From Candidatus Zipacnadia bacterium (lineage in GTDB: Bacteria > Armatimonadota > Zipacnadia > Zipacnadales > UBA11051): 41,692 nt of DNA. Where the stretch lies: the NCBI GenBank assembly GCA_029821145.1, contig JALGTY010000002.1:1-41692 (forward strand), given 5' to 3'. Below are positions 12,201 through 41,692 of this stretch, piece by piece (the first letter of the stretch is position 1; every line of letters begins with the position of its first letter). The position numbers and the translations under genes were made by a program. The notes under the pieces were generated by a model. That model had not been told where the DNA came from and made no database searches. It saw only the letters and a program-made list of their open reading frames with translations.

Positions 12201-13099
12201 AGCGTGGCGCTGATCTGGTGCGGCACGCGCAGCACTCTTACTTTTTCGGTCCCGGCCTTTTGCACGGCCTTGGCGATGCTCTCGGTGATATTGCCATAGG
12301 CCTCGACTACTACGACGCCTTCGCTGTCGCTCTGTCGCGAGGTGGCGTAGAATATGTCGTGCTCCTGTACCCCGGGCATGCTGCCGCGCTCGGCATCCTT
12401 GAGCTCTTTGAGGACCTGCTTGATCTCAACCGTCTCGCGGTTGCCGAAACATTCCAGTATCTCGGCGTCAGTGCCGGTGGGCGGCAAGTCCTCAGTTACG
12501 TCCTCGAACCAGTCCAGAGCCCGCAGCAAGGCCGTTACCGGGAACTTGCGGCTCTGGCCGATGCGCACGGTGATAACGCCACTGGCGGCCGTCTCGATCT
12601 CAACCCATGCGCCCTCGTTGGGTATCACCTGCGCGGCGTACAGCACGCGCCCCGCCGAATCTACACTGTCGCGGAAATAGACGCTGGGTGAACGGGCCAG
12701 TTGGCTGATGACTACGCGCTCGGCACCATTGATGAGGAAGGTGCCCCGGTCAGTCATCACCGGTAGCTCACCCATGTAAACCTCGGACTCCTTCATCTCG
12801 CCCGTCTCTTTGTTGACCAGCCGCACTTTGGCGTAGATCGGGGCCTCATAGGTGGTGTCGCGTTCCCGGCATTCTGCGATGTTCAGCGATGGCTCGCCGA
12901 TCCGGTAATCCAGGAAGTCCAGAGAAACGTTACCGGTGTAGTCCTCGATGCCGCTGAAATTCTCAAACAGCTCCTTGAGGCCCGTGTCGAGAAACCAGTG
13001 ATAAGACCGGGTCTGAATCTCGATAAGGTCTGGGAGTGGCAGGATGTCTTCGCGCCTACGCTTGGGGTACTCTACGCTGCGGGACTCAACCGTGGCCAT
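9293..13099 (-). CDS. rpoB: DNA-directed RNA polymerase subunit beta
   Basis: [85 protein letters not shown]. Likely start ATG at 13099 (MATVESRS) with AGGAGG upstream; the longer ORF begins at 13168. Confidence 0.97.
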
Positions 13100-30097: not shown

Positions 30098-30269
30098 CTT
30101 GCGGAGACTGCTGCCATTTTACCACAAATCCCTCTGATGTCCAATGCCTGAGTGTTCCCCTTCATACGCGCAATTCCTTCACAGCGGCTACGGACTTTCT
30201 TGCGCGCAGGACAAATCGTTCGCTCAGCGAACTATACGTCAGCAAATACCATCAGTCCCGGAGGCTACC

Positions 30270-32042
30270 ATGTCAGAGTTCAAAGCCGCTATAGTTCACG
30301 ACGACAGCCTGCGCGCACAGGCCAATGCCGCAGGTCGCAACTACTGGCCGGTCTATTATCGCGAAATCCTCAACCGCATGGGCCTACCACATAGCCTGCT
30401 GGGCCCCGATGAATTGACAGCCGACGATTTGGAGCAATACAACATCCTGCTGTTGCCGCCACTGCCGCAAGAGTGCCTGACAGATGCGCAGGTGAAGGCC
30501 CTGTCAGAGTGGGTGACATTCGGCGGGCTGCTGATAGGTTTTGCCACTGGCGGCCTCGATGAGCTGTTTGGCATCAGCGTGGAGGGCGTGATCGAACAGG
30601 CCGGGGATGAGTTCACCCCTTCCGCTTGCCTCCGACTGTGCGACGAGGACTTCAGTGCGGCGCTGCTGCCGCCCTACGAACGCGGTGCCGCCATGCCGGT
30701 GCTGGCCCCGATGCAGCGGCTGCGTGCCCCGGACTGCCGCGAGCTGGCGCACCTGCTGTCATTGTTCGAGCAGGACCTGCACCAGCCGGCGGTTACGTAC
30801 CGCACTGTCGGCGACGGCGCCGCATGTTACTGGGCCTTCGACCTGGCGCAGTGCACCTGGGCGATGCAGCAAGGGCGTCCGGTCTATGAAGACTACGATG
30901 GCGACAACTCACTGCGCACCATGGACCAGATCACCACGCGACCCTGGGAGGCAAATGTACCGTATGCCGATCTGATGATGTTCGCGCTGCGGCGCATCAT
31001 CGCCGAGCATGGCGGAGTGTTCCTGCACCAGCTTCCGCCTGCCGCCGACGGCTCAATTCCGGACGCGGTCTTTCACTGGGGCGGCGATGACGAAGGGGCC
31101 ACCGATGTGCAAATCCCCGCCGCTGAGTTTATGGTCGAGATGAGTCTGCCGTACCACATCAATATCATGCAGTCGCCGGTGCCCATCCACACATTGTCGG
31201 CCGAGAAGTTCAACCAACTCAAAGAACTCGGTTGTGAGACCTCAATTCATTTCAACTTCACTACTGCGGGTCAGCAGCCCTACCGTATCACACGCCAGGA
31301 CCTCGCCGACCAACTCGACGCCTACTACGAGGCCTATGGCGAGGTCCCGGTTTGCACGGTCTTTCACTGCATGACCTGGACCGGCTGGGCTGAGCCGGCG
31401 CGCTGGCTGGCCGAGCTGGGCATGAAGGGCGACAACAACCGCGCACACTGGCGCTACCCGCCGTCCAACCCGGTCAACAAGTGCAACTTCGCCTTCGGCA
31501 CCTGCTACCCGTTCCACTACTATGACGACTACAGCCAGGATAACGGCCGCATTGACTTCACTTCACAACCCGTCACAGCCTACGAGTGCGGCTACATGGG
31601 GGAAAGTGCCGAATTCAGCCACTTGCACCGCGCCATCGAACTGGCTAAGTTCTGGAATCTGACGATGAATTTGTTCTTCCATCCCATCCGTCTTACCGAA
31701 GATGCGCCGCAGGCGGCGGTCAAGGAAGCCCTGGCATATATGCAGAAGCTGGAAATGAACCCGCTCCACTTCGGCACTGACGAGATGTGCCTGTGGTGGC
31801 ATGCCAGAGATGCGTCGGCGATTGAAGCCATAGAACGCGAGGAGCAACAAGTGACCGTGCGGACACAGACCGACTATCCGGCAGGCTGCATCATCCAACT
31901 GCTGTGGCCTGACGGAGAGCCGGGCTCTGTGGAGGTCAACGGCGAGTCGGCGCGATATGTGGTTCGCGAGCAGCACAACGCCCGGTGGCTGTATGTGGCG
32001 ATGCCGACGGGCAAGGCAGAGGCTGTCATAGCGCATGTCTAA
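30270..32042 (+). CDS. GATase1-like N-terminal domain fused to polysaccharide-deacetylase-like domain
   Basis: Start MSEFKAAIVHDDSLRAQ after CCGGAGG. N-terminal YNILLLPPLPQECLTDAQVKALSEWVTFGGLLIGFATGG (ThuA/GATase-like), then FHWGGDDEGATDVQI...ETSIHFNF...YGEVPVCTVFHCMTWTGWAEPARWLAELG (deacetylase-like). Confidence 0.6.
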   Translation: MSEFKAAIVHDDSLRAQANAAGRNYWPVYYREILNRMGLPHSLLGPDELTADDLEQYNILLLPPLPQECLTDAQVKALSEWVTFGGLLIGFATGGLDELFGISVEGVIEQAGDEFTPSACLRLCDEDFSAALLPPYERGAAMPVLAPMQRLRAPDCRELAHLLSLFEQDLHQPAVTYRTVGDGAACYWAFDLAQCTWAMQQGRPVYEDYDGDNSLRTMDQITTRPWEANVPYADLMMFALRRIIAEHGGVFLHQLPPAADGSIPDAVFHWGGDDEGATDVQIPAAEFMVEMSLPYHINIMQSPVPIHTLSAEKFNQLKELGCETSIHFNFTTAGQQPYRITRQDLADQLDAYYEAYGEVPVCTVFHCMTWTGWAEPARWLAELGMKGDNNRAHWRYPPSNPVNKCNFAFGTCYPFHYYDDYSQDNGRIDFTSQPVTAYECGYMGESAEFSHLHRAIELAKFWNLTMNLFFHPIRLTEDAPQAAVKEALAYMQKLEMNPLHFGTDEMCLWWHARDASAIEAIEREEQQVTVRTQTDYPAGCIIQLLWPDGEPGSVEVNGESARYVVREQHNARWLYVAMPTGKAEAVIAHV

Positions 32043-32043
32043 C

Positions 32044-32104
32044 CCGCGTTATTCATGAACGCGTGGCTCGGCCTGCCCTGAGCAACGTCGAAGGGCAGCC
32101 CGAG
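32044..32104 (-). repeat. Dispersed intergenic palindromic repeat, copy 3
   Basis: Reverse complement reads CTCGGGCTGCCCTTCGACGTTGCTCAGGGCAGGCCGAGCCACGCGTTCATGAATAACGCG; stem CTCGG.CTGCCCT/AGGGCAG.CCGAG. Confidence 0.75.
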
Positions 32105-32167
32105 GTCGTTCAGGTTATGCAGGCGAAGTTGTCATCCGTAACTCTCTCAGCCAAAGAGGTGACGGTA

Positions 32168-35100
32168 ATGCGTTGGTACGAATTGCTGATTGGCACACTT
32201 CTGTTGGCGTTTCTGGCGCTGTGTATCCCGGTGTTCGGTCAGGGGGATGAGATGATAGCGTACCAGCCCGACATCCTTGGTGTGAATCGCCTCTTCATGA
32301 TCGTGCTGAAGGTACCGACTGACGCGCCACAGATCAAGGTGACGGTGCCGGATGAAGTCGAGATGCTCGACCGCACACCACTTCCCACCAAACAGGACAT
32401 GCGCAAGTACTACTTCCGCAGCCTCACTCCGGCCAGGCAGACCGACATCGTCTTTGATCACCCAGCCGGCGAAATCACCATCTCTATAGAGATATGGTCA
32501 TTTGAGGACCTGCGGAGGTTTCGGGAGTTGAAGGGTGTGCAACTTCCGCGCCGCTGGCCGTTGGGTGAAGAGCTGCCCGAACTCAAGCAAGCCCAGACCA
32601 TCACTCCCGATGCTCTCAAAGAGTACATGAAGGGTCGTGGAGCGCCGGGCAAGAACTGGCTTAACTACACCGATGAAGAGATCTGGTCGGTGCAGCCGGA
32701 CAGTACCATTCGCCGTACTGGCTGGGTTAATCTGGAGAAGGGCTGTCCGGTTCACGGCAGAGAAATCTACCGCATCCGAGCCTACTATCCCTGGCACAAG
32801 GGCACTCCAATACCCGCCACGTGGAAAGTTCGCTGTCCGATCGGTGACGAAGAATATCCTTCCAACGATCTTGCCCATGATGATTTCACCAGCGGAGAGT
32901 TTCCTGATGACGGGATTACAAGCGGGTGCATACTCAAAGGCGAGGCATACCACTTTGTCGCTGAGCTCTGCCGGGAGTATTGCCGCAAGGCCTTGACGAT
33001 TGCCCCGGCTTGCGCTGATGGCTACTTGGCCACCGGTGATATAAAGTTCGTCCATAAGGCTCTGGTCATCCTCTGCCGTCTGGCGGAAGAGTATTCCTAC
33101 CTTGCCACCATGACTCATCACCGCTATATTGGTGAGATCTGGGCCAATGAGCGTTTTGTCGGCCCTCGTCGTTTTGCGGATGGGCCATTTCTCGCTGGCA
33201 GCGGCTTTACCGAGTATCACATCGCCCAGCCCGGGCCTCAATGGCGCAATGCCGAGGCCTATGACAAGATTTTCCCGGCCATTGACCAGGACGAGGAAAT
33301 CATTCCCTTCCTGCAGAGCAAGGGCTTCGACGTGAAAACTCATGAAGATGTGCGGCGCTTCATCGAGGACAACCTCTTCGCCGTGTGGATGCAGGGGGCG
33401 ATGGACGGGGCCACTTCCTCGAATGAGCCCTATGCCCAGCGCGGACTGGCGCGGATGGCGGAGTGTCTGAATTACAAGCGCGGCGACGAGTTCATGGACT
33501 GGCTTTACGATCACCCCCGCGGCAAGATGCGCTACTTTGTGACTAACACCTTCTTCCGCGACGGTGCTCCCTACGAATCCACCGGCGGCTACAATGGCAT
33601 GCATGTGACGGCCATTGGCCCCATCGTCGAGTCCATTGAACACCTACGCGAGATGCGCCCGGAAGTCTATCCGGACGATAAGTACCCCAATCTCAGCAAG
33701 AGCCGCCGCTACCACAGCATTTTTGACTTCTCCATGAATACTGTCAACATTGACCGCACCTATCCCAAGGTCGGTGACGGTGGCAGTTACCCACGATATG
33801 GTAAGCGGGGCAAAATACGCTGGCAAAATGGCGGCGTTGCGGCCTTTGAGCACGCCTACAAGATCTTCAAGGACCCTAAATTCGCGTGGGCGCTTGCGAA
33901 TCATACTGGCTGGCAGCCCTCCATGGAATTCCCTTACACCCGCGAGCAGATTGAAGCCGCTGCAGCGCAATGGCCTGACGAATTCAACGACCCAAGTTGC
34001 CTCCAGGACGGTTACGGTCTGGCGATGCTGCGTAGCGGTGAGGGTGACAACAAACGCGCGCTGTGGATGATGTACGGGCGGGCGCGCGGGCACACCCACG
34101 ATGATATCATGCAGATAGGGCTCGATGGCTACCAGTCCGAAATCCTGGGACACATGGGCTACCCGCGCAACTGGGGTTACTGGGAGCACTGCTGGATGAC
34201 GCAGATATTGGCCCGCCAGTTCCCCTACGTGCAAATGACCGCCACCTCCCAACTGTTCGCCGACGCCGGCCCGGTGCACGTCTGCGAGGCCTTGGCGCAC
34301 GGCTTCAGTGACAAGGTCAGCAGCGGCGAGGGCTATCAGGTCTCCGACGATAACTGGCAACGCCGGATGCTGGCCATTGTGGATGTATCTGACGACCAGT
34401 TCTACTGCGTGGATCTGTATCGCATTCACGGTGGCGAGGAGCACTGGTGGTCCTTCCACGCCCAGGAAGGCGACTTCACCACCGGCGGGATAGACCTGAC
34501 CAGGCAGGAGGGCGGCACCGTCGCCGGCCCCGAGGTGCCCTACGGTGACCCCGAGTGGCTCAAGGCTAACGGCTGTTCTCTGCACTCTACTTATGGCTGG
34601 CGCGGCCTGATGTTTGGCTTCGCACATCTGTACAATGTGCAGCGCGGGAAGTCTGAGGGGCCGTGGTGGGCTGACTGGGCGCTGGAGAATGCCGACGGCC
34701 TGCACTTTCGCATGACCGTCCCGCAGGCCGAGGGTATGGAGGCGATTGTCGCTGACGGGACCTCTCCAGCCGGTGGCGATCCATACGAAATGAAATGGAT
34801 TCTGCTGCACAAACAAGCTGAGGCACCCACCAGGACCCAGGTTATGAATGTTATGGAGCTCTACAACGGCGCGCCGGTCATCAAGTCGGTACGGCCCCTG
34901 GAAGTTTCCGGAGGCGATGAAGCCGGCTTTGAGGCTTACGGGTGCGTCGTCGAACTGACCAACGGTCGCACCGATACCATCTTCGCAGCCGCCGACCCGG
35001 ATACTGCGCACACGGCGGCGGGCGGCTTTGGGTTCGCCGGCCGCTTCGGCCTGCATTCCGAGCAAGACGGCGTGACGACCTCCCTGGTACTGGTCGGCGG

Positions 35101-35893
35101 TACCAGGCTCACGAAAAACGGAATTGGTATCACCCAGGAAACCGGCGAGTACCGTGGCGGAATCACCAAGGTGAATAGAGAGACGGAGACTATTACGGTG
35201 TCGCCTGCGCCCCAGAACCCGGCCGCCATGGTCGGCAACTACATCTACATAACCAACCCGGTGCGCCGCATCGCCTATAAGGTGCTCGAAGCGAAGGAAG
35301 TGGCCGACGGGGCAGAGTTGCGCCTGGAGTTCGACTCGCGCATCGGCACCGGCAAAGCGACCGGTATTGACGGGCCCAAGGTGCTCACCCCGACACCGTT
35401 CCACCTGAGCCGCTACCGGTATTATCATGGTGCACGCATCGTGAACGCCGACGGCACTGCCGAGTATCAGTTGGCCGGCGTGCAGAGCGCCAGGTTCGCC
35501 CTGATTGATGCCGGCGTGCATCCGGACCTCGATGCCGCTACATTGGAAACCGAATTCCCGGCGGACACCTGGTTCGATATCTATGACTACGGGGTCGGCG
35601 ATGAAGTGGTCTGGCCGCAGAGTGGTCTGGCCGCAGACGGTGAGCGTCACCGAAGTCGGGCCGGCGGCCTACCAAGTCACAGCCACGGACAAGTTCACTC
35701 TCAGTCTGCCGAAGAATGTCAAGGCCGGATTGGCGAGCCATTAGGCCTGCCCGCCAATCTGGCAAACGATGGGCCGCCCGCCGCTTCAGTCTGTGCAATA
35801 TCATCACAATTTTGGATGCTGCCCGGTTGCAGAAACATATTGACAGGGCGGCCGGCACAGGATACCATTCATTGGGTAGCTAACTTATATTAG
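32168..35893 (+). CDS. Heparinase II/III-like secreted protein, paralog A (C-terminus frameshifted)
   Basis: Signal peptide [95 protein letters not shown]. The ORF reads out of the conserved C-terminus after 35620; without the 16-bp duplication the CDS would end at 35744. Confidence 0.75.
35605..35636 (+). repeat. Perfect 16-bp tandem duplication
   Basis: AGTGGTCTGGCCGCAG x2 (35605-35620, 35621-35636), inside paralog A. Confidence 0.97.
35840..35868 (+). promoter_or_regulatory. Possible promoter upstream of prepilin-like gene 1
   Basis: TTGACA (35840-35845), 17-nt spacer, TACCAT (35863-35868). Confidence 0.4.
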
Positions 35894-35903
35894 AGGAGGT
35901 ATT

Positions 35904-36518
35904 GTGATGCGAAAGGGATTCACGCTTATTGAACTATTGGTGGTGATCGCAATCATCGCGATCCTGGCGGCGATACTGTTTCCGGTATTCGCCCGCGCTC
36001 GCGAGAAGGCGCGCCAGACTTCGTGCCTCAACAATCTTAAGCAGATCGCGCTGGGTCTGCACATGTATTTCCAGGACTATGACGAGCGCACGCCGTCCTA
36101 CCGCCACGAACTACCGGGCAACACGGGCATCAAGTGGCAGCATATGATCCTGCCCTATGTGAAGAACGCCCAGCTATACCTGTGCCCGAGTGGTGACCGG
36201 ACCTATGGCAGCGGGACCGTTGCGACTTCGCACTACGGCTGGAACTACTATTACCTGTTTTTTATAGCGATCGCCGAGATCACCAGGCCCGCCGAAACCA
36301 TCATGGTTGCCGAAAAACAGGCGGGGGGCTGGGGTGGGGTCGTCTATCCGCCGAGAAGCGCCTCTTGGAAAACGACCTACGTGGACGTTAACAACCGCCC
36401 CAGCATCCACAACCAGGGGTCCAACTTCGCCTTTTGCGACGGGCATGCCAAGTGGATGCGGGACAGCGAGTCCAGCGAACTCTCCTCCAACGCCAAGTAT
36501 TGGGTGGCCAGGAGGTAG
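35904..36518 (+). CDS. Prepilin-like protein 1 (N-methylation motif, C-terminal H-X9-DG)
   Basis: [54 protein letters not shown]...[29 protein letters not shown] at 35904 or ATG at 35907. Confidence 0.92.
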
Positions 36519-36681
36519 AAGCTGGCGGGCATGCGTTGGAGCCTGGCCGGAGCCGCCGCCATCTTGTGGCCTTGCGTACCTTGGCGATCAACCGGCGCTG
36601 GCGCCACTTCCGGTTCCACCACCTCCCAAGCGGGGGGTAATATGTTGTTAGCTGATTAATCTGAACCAGAGAGAGGGTGTT

Positions 36682-37254
36682 GTGATGCGAAAGGGGTTCA
36701 CACTTATTGAACTGTTGGTGGTGATCGCAATCATTGCGATCCTGGCGGCGATACTCTTTCCGGTTTTTGCCAGGGCCCGTGAGAAGGCACGGCAGAGCTC
36801 GTGTCTGAGCAATGTCAAGCAGATCGCCCTGGGAGTACTGATGTACGCACAGGACTATGACGAGCGACTGCTTGCTTACCGGAGCGAGACGGTGAAGATC
36901 AGTTGGGTAACACTGATTGACCCCTACGTCAAGAACTCGCAGGTCTGGTACTGCCCCTCCTACGGCAACGTCGGCGTCGGCTACGGATGGAACTACGAGT
37001 TCATCGTCTGGCATAAACTCGCCGAGTTTGGCCGGCCCTCAGAGACCATGATGTTCGGCGACTCCGGGGGCCACGTCCTTTATCGCCCGGGACGCTACGG
37101 CTACGCCCCCAACCCTAGCGACATTTACTGGCAGTACAACATGCTGGGAGTGCGACACAACGGCGGCGGCAACCTCGGCTTTGTGGATGGGCACGCCAAG
37201 TGGTACCACGAAAACCAATACATGTACAGCCATGATCTGTGGTCGCGCCACTGA
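36682..37254 (+). CDS. Prepilin-like protein 2 (N-methylation motif, H-X9-DG)
   Basis: [60 protein letters not shown]...[18 protein letters not shown]. Confidence 0.92.
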
Positions 37255-37303
37255 GGCCGCCGAAGTCTCCTCCAATGCCAGGTATTGGACGTCCAGGCGG
37301 TAG
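37253..37303 (+). pseudogene. Remnant of a prepilin-like C-terminus, out of frame after gene 2
   Basis: GAG GCC GCC GAA GTC TCC TCC AAT GCC AGG TAT TGG ACG TCC AGG CGG TAG = [16 protein letters not shown], matching gene 1 [13 protein letters not shown] and gene 3 [13 protein letters not shown]. Confidence 0.8.
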
Positions 37304-37361
37304 AAGCTGGCCGGACAGGATAGTATTCATTGGGTAACTAGCTTACGCTGGGGGAGGTACT

Positions 37362-38012
37362 GTGATGCGCAAGGGATTCACGCTTATCGAACTGCTGGTG
37401 GTGATCGCCATTATCGCGATTCTGGCGGCGATACTGTTCCCGGTATTCGCCCGCGCTCGCGAGAAGGCGCGGCAGACGACTTGTCTGAGCAACGTCAAGG
37501 AGATAGCGCTGGGTTGCCACATGTACGTCCAGGATTATGATGAGCGGTTGCCAGGATATAGGCATGAGCGCCCCGGCAACACTAACATCAAGTGGGCGCA
37601 TATGGTTTCGCCCTATATAGCTTCGTATGCTACTGACGCGTACATGCGACCGAGCGGTAGCGTCCACATATGGGTCTGCCCCAGCGGCGACCGTCACACT
37701 TCCAGCGGCAGAGTTGCGGCCAGTCACTACGGCTGGAACTACGTGTATGTGAATTGGATTGCGGTCGCAGAAATCACCAACCCAAGTGAGACCATCATGA
37801 TCGGCGAATGCTACGCCGTGGATAGGGGCGCGGGAGTTGTCTATGCACCGTATAGGGCCTCGTTTCTAACCCTCGCGGAGACTTACAACCGCCCCCGCAT
37901 TCACAACCAGGGGTCCAACTACGCCTTCTGCGACGGACATGCCAAGTGGATGTCAGCCAGCGAGGCCGTCTCACTGGCCGCCAACGACAAATACTGGAGG
38001 GCCAAGCGGTAG
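37362..38012 (+). CDS. Prepilin-like protein 3 (N-methylation motif, H-X9-DG)
   Basis: [60 protein letters not shown]...[17 protein letters not shown]. Confidence 0.92.
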
Positions 38013-38130
38013 AAGCTGGCCTGGGTTGCGGCCATCACGTTATCAGGGGCACAGTACAGAGGCCGGCCACGTCAGGCGCTTGCCCTGTTCACTGAAGCAA
38101 CTTGCATAAAGTCAAAGCTGGGGTGAGGCC

Positions 38131-41100
38131 ATGACCTGGGCGCGACTTGCTTGTGTTGCTGCTATGGTTTGTGCGGCCGCCGCATTCCCCGTCCACGCAG
38201 ACACCAACGACCCCGTTGCCTATCAACCGGATATCATTGGCGTTGGCCGGCTCTTCCTGATTGCACTGCGGGTCCCCCAGGACGCGCCGGAATTAGCGGT
38301 AAAGGTACCTGAATGTGTCCGGCTTCTCGACCGTACCCCCTTGCCGGCCAGGTCCGACTTGCGCAAGTACTACTTCCGCAGCCTCGTTCCGACCCAGCAG
38401 GCCGACATCGTCTTTGGTCACCCCGACGGCCCTATCACGACCTCCCTCGAGATCTGGTCCTTCGAGCAGTTGCGCGAGTTCCGCGAGCTGAAGGGCAAGC
38501 AACTGCCTCGCCGCTGGCCCCTGGGTGAGACGCTGCCCGAGCTGAAGCAGACCCAGACCATCACCAGCGAGGCGGTCAAGCAGGCCAAGCAGGGCCAGGA
38601 GGTGGACCTGAAGTGGGTGGACATGAGTGATGACGAGATCTGGGCCCTGCAGCCTGATTCCACCATCCCCAGGTTTCACTATGTCAACATCCGTCATGGC
38701 TGCCCAATTCATGGTAAAGAGATCTATTCGGTAAAGGCATGGTACCCGTGGATCAAAGACTCCAGTCTGCCGTTCAGTTGGAAGATCCAGTGCCCCATCG
38801 GCAAGGAGATCTACCCCAGCAACGATTTCGCCAACGATGATTTCACCAGTGGCGAATTCCCCGACGACGGCATCGGCGGCGGATACGTGGCTCCAGACGG
38901 CAAGCATTACGGCTTCATTGCTGACCTCTGTCAGGCGTATTGTCACAGGATGCTCAGTGTCGCCCCGCAGTGTGCCGATGCCTACCTGGCCACCGACGAT
39001 ATGCGCTACGTTCATAAAGCGCTGGTGGCAATGAGCCGGCTGGCCGTTGAGTATGCCTACCTCGCGACCATGACGCACCACCGCCACCGCAACAAGGCCG
39101 AGCAGGTCGAGCGACTTGGCCAGAGCCTTTTCAGCGACGGCCCCTTCCTCAGAAACAGCGGCTTCACCATGTATCGCATTGCCCAGCCTGGCTACCAGAT
39201 GAGCCACGCAGTGGCTTATAAAAAGATATTCCCCGCCATACAGCAGGATCAGGAAATCATGCCTTTCCTGCACTCCAAGGGCTTCACCGAGATTGAGAAC
39301 CATGAAGACTTGCGACGCTTTCTCGAGGAGAACTTGTTTGCTGTGTGGATGCAGGGCGCGATGGACGGAGCGACCTCCTCAAACGAGCCGCGTTCGCAGA
39401 TGGGTCTGGTACGGATGGCCGAGTGCCTCAACTACCAGCGCGGCAACGAGTTCATGGACTGGCTCTACGACCATCCGCGCGGCAAAATGCGCTACTTCGT
39501 GACCAATACCTTCTTCCGCGATGGCGCACCGTACGAGGCCACCGGCCACTACAACGGCGTACATGTGTGCACTATGACACCGATTGTTGAAGGTGTCGAA
39601 CACCTCCGCTCAATGCGCCCGCAGGTCTATCCGGAAGATAAGTACCCCAATCTCAGCAAGAGCCGGCGCTACCATAGTGTCTTTGATTTCTGCATGAACA
39701 CCGTCACCATAGACCGGGCCTATCCGAAACTCGGCGATGATACGGCGGGACGAGGTTACGATCGCGCCTATCCGTATTACCATAAGATGCCCCGGCGGAC
39801 ATGGCAAACGGGCGGTGCAGCCGCCTTCGAGCACGCCTACCAGATCTTCAAAGACCCGAAGTTCGCATGGGCACTGGTCAATGCGCCGGGCTGGCAGCCC
39901 TCCACGGACTTTCCCTACACGCGGCAGCAGATTGAGGCGGAAGCTGCCAAATGGCCGGATGACTGGAATGACAGGAGCTCCCTGCAGGACGGCTACGGCC
40001 TGGCCATGCTGCGCAGCGGCAAAGGTGACGCCAAGCGCGCCCTGTGGATGATGTACGGCCAATATCGCAACCATCGGCACAATGACATCATGCACATAGG
40101 GCTTGACGCCGAGCAGAGCGAGATACTGGGGCAGCTCGGCTATCCTCGCGGCGGCGACTGGACGTACTGCTGGATCACACACAATCTTGCCCGCCAGATC
40201 CCTTACGTCGGCCTGACGGCCACCAACCAGTTGTTTGTGGACGAGGGCCCGGTGCATGTCACCGAAGCCTTCGCCCGAGGCTACGAGGACGCAGTGAGCC
40301 CTGGACAGGGCTACCAGCTACTGCCCGATGACTGGCAGCGGCGCATGTTGGCGGTAATTGATGTATCGGATACTGAGTCCTACTACCTGGATTTCTACCG
40401 GATCTCCGGCGGCAAAGATCACTGGTGGAGCTTTCACTGCCAGGAGGGAGAATTCGTTACCCAGGGACTGAAGCTGGAGAAGCAGCAGGGCGGCACCCTG
40501 GCCGGCCCCGACATCGCGTATGGCCAGAACCTATGGGAGTCCGAGCCGCCGGTGCGCCCGTGGATAATCCGCCAGCCCGAGATGTACGGCTTCGTTCACC
40601 TCTACAACGTCGAGCGTGACCGCGCGCCTGAGCCAGGATGGTCAGCCGACTGGGCGCTGAAGAACTCCGACGGTCTGCATTTCCGCATGACCGTCCCGCA
40701 GGCCAATATCAACGAAGTAGCCATCTGTGACGGCAAATCACCCACGGGCGGATCGCCCTATGAGATGAAGTGGGTGCTGATGCACAACCAGCAGGAGACG
40801 CCCGCCCGCACCCAGATCGTCAATGTCATGGAACTGTATCGGGAGCAGCCGGTGGTCAAGTCGGTCCGCGCTCTGGAGGTATCGGGTGAGGACGAGGCCG
40901 GCTTCGAGGCCTATGGGTGCGTGGTGGAGTTGAGCAATGGCCGCACCGACACCATCTTCGCAGCCGCCGACCCGGGTACTGTGCACACGGCGGCGGGCGG
41001 CTTTGAGTTTGCCGGCCGTTTTGGCCTCTACTCCGAGCAGGACGGCGAGCCGGCTCAGGTGGTGCTGGTGGGCGGCACGCGTCTCACCAAGAACGGGCGT

Positions 41101-41692
41101 GGGGTCGTGACCGATGCGGGACAATACCAGGCAATGATCACCAGTGTGGACCGGGTCGCCGAGACCATCACCGTCTCGCCTCCCTTCGAACATCCGGAGC
41201 GACTGCTCGGTAAGTACATACATATCTTCAATCCGGTGCGGCGCGTTGCCTACCAGGTTCTTGAGGCGGAGACCACAGCAGCCGGCACCAAGCTACGTCT
41301 GGATCTCGATTCGCGGATCGGGACGGGCCAGGTCACCGGCCACAGCGATTACAAGGTCGAGACGAACACTCCCTTCGTTCTCAACCACTACCGCTATTAC
41401 GACGGCGCCCGCCTGGTCAACGCCGAGCGCACCGCAGATTACCGCATCATAGACGTGCGCGGAGGAGCGCTCATTGATTCACAAGCGCACCCGGAATGCC
41501 CACCCGAGAAGCTACAGGCCGAGTTCCCGGTGGGCTCCTGGTTTGAAGTGTATGATTATGGCGTGGGAGATGAGGTCTTCTGGCCGCAGGCCGTCAGTGT
41601 CACCGAGGTCGGGCCGGCGGCTTACAAGGTCACAGCGACAGCCAAAGTTGCCCTCAGCTTGCCGAGTAATACCGCGGCGAGATTGGCGAGCC
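38131..41692 (+). CDS. Heparinase II/III-like secreted protein, paralog B (runs off window end)
   Basis: MTWARLACVAAMVCAAAAFPVHADTNDPVAYQPDIIGVGRLFLIALRVPQ..., open to 41692; [50 protein letters not shown]. Not in the ORF track because it has no stop inside the window. Confidence 0.75.
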   Translation, partial: MTWARLACVAAMVCAAAAFPVHADTNDPVAYQPDIIGVGRLFLIALRVPQDAPELAVKVPECVRLLDRTPLPARSDLRKYYFRSLVPTQQADIVFGHPDGPITTSLEIWSFEQLREFRELKGKQLPRRWPLGETLPELKQTQTITSEAVKQAKQGQEVDLKWVDMSDDEIWALQPDSTIPRFHYVNIRHGCPIHGKEIYSVKAWYPWIKDSSLPFSWKIQCPIGKEIYPSNDFANDDFTSGEFPDDGIGGGYVAPDGKHYGFIADLCQAYCHRMLSVAPQCADAYLATDDMRYVHKALVAMSRLAVEYAYLATMTHHRHRNKAEQVERLGQSLFSDGPFLRNSGFTMYRIAQPGYQMSHAVAYKKIFPAIQQDQEIMPFLHSKGFTEIENHEDLRRFLEENLFAVWMQGAMDGATSSNEPRSQMGLVRMAECLNYQRGNEFMDWLYDHPRGKMRYFVTNTFFRDGAPYEATGHYNGVHVCTMTPIVEGVEHLRSMRPQVYPEDKYPNLSKSRRYHSVFDFCMNTVTIDRAYPKLGDDTAGRGYDRAYPYYHKMPRRTWQTGGAAAFEHAYQIFKDPKFAWALVNAPGWQPSTDFPYTRQQIEAEAAKWPDDWNDRSSLQDGYGLAMLRSGKGDAKRALWMMYGQYRNHRHNDIMHIGLDAEQSEILGQLGYPRGGDWTYCWITHNLARQIPYVGLTATNQLFVDEGPVHVTEAFARGYEDAVSPGQGYQLLPDDWQRRMLAVIDVSDTESYYLDFYRISGGKDHWWSFHCQEGEFVTQGLKLEKQQGGTLAGPDIAYGQNLWESEPPVRPWIIRQPEMYGFVHLYNVERDRAPEPGWSADWALKNSDGLHFRMTVPQANINEVAICDGKSPTGGSPYEMKWVLMHNQQETPARTQIVNVMELYREQPVVKSVRALEVSGEDEAGFEAYGCVVELSNGRTDTIFAAADPGTVHTAAGGFEFAGRFGLYSEQDGEPAQVVLVGGTRLTKNGRGVVTDAGQYQAMITSVDRVAETITVSPPFEHPERLLGKYIHIFNPVRRVAYQVLEAETTAAGTKLRLDLDSRIGTGQVTGHSDYKVETNTPFVLNHYRYYDGARLVNAERTADYRIIDVRGGALIDSQAHPECPPEKLQAEFPVGSWFEVYDYGVGDEVFWPQAVSVTEVGPAAYKVTATAKVALSLPSNTAARLAS

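Follow-up and report, generated by a model that had tools for sequence, protein, structure and literature searches.

A 16-bp tandem duplication that frameshifts a heparinase-like gene in a Zipacnadia draft genome is almost certainly an assembly error

Does the 16-bp repeat that throws a large secreted-lyase-like gene (gene A) out of frame in a Candidatus Zipacnadia draft genome belong to the organism, as a recent lesion or a reversible switch, or was it introduced by the assembly? The window, the whole stretch of 41,692 nucleotides that was analyzed, is the entire contig C304 of a fragmented metagenome-assembled genome (4.29 Mb, 603 contigs, about 87% complete, 7% contamination). Same-genus genomes in public collections are filed as bacterium CSMAG_1176, Armatimonadota and candidate division WS1, and a scan of genome contigs found none from the window's own species. 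The original prediction had named three options, a recent lesion, a slippage switch and an assembly duplication. As set out below, the assembly option gained support and the switch lost it.

The repeat unit, AGTGGTCTGGCCGCAG, was indeed present as two exact copies, back to back on the forward strand (35605-35620 and 35621-35636), with no divergence between them. The duplicated tract reaches one base further, to 35637, and the microhomology at its junction is one base. No other exact tandem duplication with a unit of at least 12 bp was found in the window; in random sequence of the window's size and composition, the expectation for units of 16-101 bp is ~2e-5. At 2.06 copies, the tract lacks the multi-copy or hypermutable character of a phase-variable repeat locus. 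Another suspected feature of the window, a palindromic repeat, was not borne out above chance level. Two sources of the duplication were rejected: slippage with microhomology, given the single base common at the junction, and a transposon footprint, as no trace of an element was found. A target-site duplication of 16 bp would also be of unusual length.

Gene A probably starts at position 32168 (MRWYELL...). This start, rather than 31985, lines up with those of the paralogs. Just upstream, at 30144-32042, lies a gene for a protein with a beta-galactosidase trimerisation domain (Glyco_hydro_42M). Downstream are three DUF1559-type pseudopilin genes, of which the first (35904-36518) was run against Pfam, and then paralog B, which has no duplication at the homologous site; its C-terminal sequence corresponding to the expected tail of A reads on up to the contig end (Table 1). 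Based on the 114-bp overlap between the window and contig C548, the locus is an array of large lyase-like genes and pseudopilins in the order A, three pseudopilins, B and C, with paralog C on C548 directly after B. Paralog C carries one copy of AGTGGTCTGGCCGCAG, in frame. As the sequence on either side of the duplication matches C as well, A and C would have a word of 25 bp in common if A had a single unit.

Table 1. Coordinates of features in the window (contig C304) and of frame-breaking duplications elsewhere in the same assembly.
Feature	Contig	Position	Strand	Basis
Gene A as deposited: secreted heparinase/alginate-lyase-like protein, shifted C-terminus	C304	32168-35893	+	
Exact tandem duplication of the 16-bp unit AGTGGTCTGGCCGCAG, 2.06 copies	C304	35605-35637	+	sequence
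Second unit and the C-terminal tail expected for A, in a different open frame that closes with a stop	C304	35613-35744	+	
Word common to A and paralog C; 22 bp as assembled (35600-35621)	C304	35600-35640	+	
DUF1559-type pseudopilin genes (three) between A and B	C304	35904-36518, 36682-37254, 37362-38012	+	
Paralog B, no duplication at homologous site, runs off contig end	C304	38131-41692	+	
Exact 114-bp overlap with reversed contig C548, the location of paralog C	C304	41579-41692	+	
Frame-breaking exact tandem duplication	C110	L129:3301-3414		
Frame-breaking exact tandem duplication	C300	L149:693-791		
Frame-breaking exact tandem duplication	C458	L163:501-570		
Frame-breaking exact tandem duplication, 16-bp unit	C566	L172:1489-1520		
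Frame-breaking exact tandem duplication	C85	L204:2257-2344		
Frame-breaking exact tandem duplication	C305	L219:227-363		
Frame-breaking exact tandem duplication	C530	L169:4002-4035		

Pfam and NCBIfam gave no match for A or B, and sequence searches of the PDB with gene A or its family returned nothing useful; the family was therefore placed by fold. An AlphaFold model of paralog B, built from 35 relatives (mean pLDDT 84), predicts an alpha/alpha toroid followed by beta-sandwiches, with the C-terminal tail forming the last few strands. In Foldseek, the PDB matches of this model were PL17 Alg17c, PL40 ulvan lyase, heparinase III and related structures, with E values of 1e-18 to 1e-7. The predicted fold of B thus resembles that of the heparinase II/III-fold lyases (PL17 Alg17c, PL40 ulvan lyase, heparinase III and BtPL33), although sequence identity to these is 9-15%, curated families fail to match, and B, at about 1190 residues, has a longer C-terminal beta region. 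The label "heparinase-like" in the original prediction is justified for these putative lyases by modeled fold, but not by Pfam or NCBIfam. The family (window 31985-41692, relatives A1 and A2) appears genus-wide, each genome having about ten of these large, secreted proteins with the heparinase fold. Further relatives occur in Planctomycetota, Verrucomicrobiota and Lentisphaerae genomes, and none is matched by Pfam or NCBIfam.

The predicted effect of the repeat on gene A held: the duplication shifts the frame, and the deposited reading frame continues to 35893. The frame that the relatives of gene A use stays open, from the second unit onward, until a stop codon at 35742-35744, in agreement with the stop predicted at 35744. 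In this other frame, the expected tail has a dN/dS of about 0.19 versus paralog B and so looks to be under purifying selection. Upstream of the duplication, dN/dS is about 0.17; by this estimate, purifying selection acts on the rest of gene A too, as expected of an intact gene. The tail that replaces the expected one is read-through into the intergenic region rather than a conserved alternative domain. The C-terminal tail is not universal among homologs: several, among them L059, L085, L039, L057, L069 and L102, end within ~10-20 residues of the duplication site. The duplication was absent from the homologous site in all 46 homologous 3′ ends from named genomes (0/46), and no repeat with varying copy number was found there in the relatives or paralogs examined.

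The draft proved to be full of similar repeats. We scanned 713 kb of the same assembly (G000), comprising the window, C548 and 100 other contigs, for exact tandem duplications with units up to 300 bp, counting those with units of at least 16 bp. The sample contained 21, with units of 16-101 bp, 17 of which had lengths that are not multiples of three; the longest was 101 bp despite the wider scan. By comparison, 400 kb of a same-genus genome, G002, held one exact tandem duplication, of 27 bp and in frame, and loci taken from many named genomes (543 kb) held one non-coding array. The rates are thus about 29 per Mb in G000, mostly frameshifting, versus 2.5 per Mb, none frameshifting, in G002 (units of at least 16 bp). 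With the window and a non-coding repeat family left out, frameshifting duplications numbered 13 in G000 and 0 in G002 (p = 0.002); adding the named-genome loci gave p = 1e-4. Separately, three places on contig C365 of G000 (L222:35-190, 1341-1506 and 12863-12962) hold long repeats that are related to one another, include palindromic sequence and are probably non-coding.

At least seven other duplications in G000 break long reading frames as in gene A (Table 1). At these seven sites, the long frame stops within 5-68 codons, and the frame offset by one unit length stays open over 61-821 codons. The duplications were indifferent to reading frame and gene function, the broken genes being unrelated and including a sulfatase, an MrfA/HRQ1-type helicase, Cas3 and a Hepar_II_III protein. 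In the sulfatase, the SGSH_C domain is divided between two frames. The helicase and the L172 protein, the latter broken by another 16-bp unit, are each encoded in a single frame in G002 (981 and 945 residues, respectively; 84-95% identity). Their pieces adjoin in the G002 alignment and overlap by roughly one unit length.

Because the draft is full of such exact repeats breaking unrelated genes, the 16-bp repeat is almost certainly an assembly error. Specifically, we consider it very probable that the second AGTGGTCTGGCCGCAG unit is an uncollapsed overlap between assembled pieces and is absent from the organism. Two pieces whose ends overlapped by 16 bp would have been placed end to end with the overlap left unmerged. 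The join would fall inside the word common to A and the nearby paralog C, where the two genes are identical and a short-k assembly would be ambiguous. The unmerged overlap would then have duplicated 16 bp, falsely frameshifting the last ~36 codons of gene A. Such pieces would have been joined throughout the assembly, the AGTGGTCTGGCCGCAG tract being one join among them. Indeed, a gap of 20 Ns in contig C362 (L155:1473-1492) has an identical 25 bp, CCGTTAGCGAGTAGCTCTCAGGCCC, directly on both lips; the other three sampled N-gaps of G000 had no identical lips. The duplication, its many counterparts across the assembly, their indifference to frame and the one N-gap with identical lips are shown; from this pattern we infer that the second copy of AGTGGTCTGGCCGCAG arose by the same route, and which assembler made it is likewise a matter of inference. 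When 17 units were tested for recurrence elsewhere in the sample, AGTGGTCTGGCCGCAG alone recurred (1/17); repeat-induced breakage was rejected as a general cause, as the other units did not recur in the sampled assembly, and is supported at the AGTGGTCTGGCCGCAG site only.

A review of metagenome curation describes a scaffolding error of this kind in IDBA-UD and CLC assemblies, in which Ns were inserted despite an overlap of the flanks, leaving duplicate sequence (Chen et al. 2020, PMC7111523). The present case resembles that error in the exact duplicate of overlapping piece ends, in the genes broken in a public draft, and in C362, which keeps Ns between its identical lips. It differs in that there are no Ns at 35605-35637, where the pieces would have been abutted. 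Two observations count against an assembly origin: the AGTGGTCTGGCCGCAG duplication sits well within a 41.7-kb contig free of Ns, whereas duplications in G000 are commoner in short contigs, and none of the other tested units shows recurrence that could have induced a break.

A real, recent duplication, in which a replication error doubled the 16 bp in the sequenced population, is improbable. As a minor rival, it would have cost gene A its normal last ~36 residues and added about 85 unrelated ones. Function may survive, as several natural family members (including the homologs named above) end soon after the site, and the exact copies and the tail still open in the other frame would fit a recent event. 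However, this lesion would be an exception among the 17 sampled exact duplications of frameshifting length, about a hundred genome-wide by extrapolation, several of which break unrelated genes, and its junction has a single base of microhomology.

That the repeat is a phase-variable switch, slippage gaining or losing one unit such that the C-terminus of A alternates between two forms in the population, is highly improbable. Slippage-based contingency loci likewise have a tandem repeat inside the reading frame with a unit that is not a multiple of three, and slippage loss of a 16-bp direct repeat is possible in principle, with promoter repeats of M. tuberculosis cited (PMC12817950). If the switch were true, the tail of one large secreted member of the lyase-like family would be toggled in an uncultured bacterium. 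This part of the original prediction is nevertheless not supported: the tract has two copies only and minimal microhomology, none of the homologs and paralogs examined has the repeat, the alternative tail is intergenic read-through, and the effect is genome-wide rather than limited to particular genes, with equivalent lesions in the helicase, sulfatase and Cas3 genes.

The 16-bp duplication at 35605-35636 is thus almost certainly not a real genetic feature. A simple cue for screening is an overabundance of exact two-copy repeats that shift the frame and measure at most about 100 bp. No pseudogene, frameshift or phase variation should be claimed from this genome without first treating its exact two-copy tandem duplications as assembly errors. 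Should the sampled rate (about 29 per Mb) apply to the whole draft, roughly a hundred of its sites would be falsely duplicated, and many genes falsely broken.
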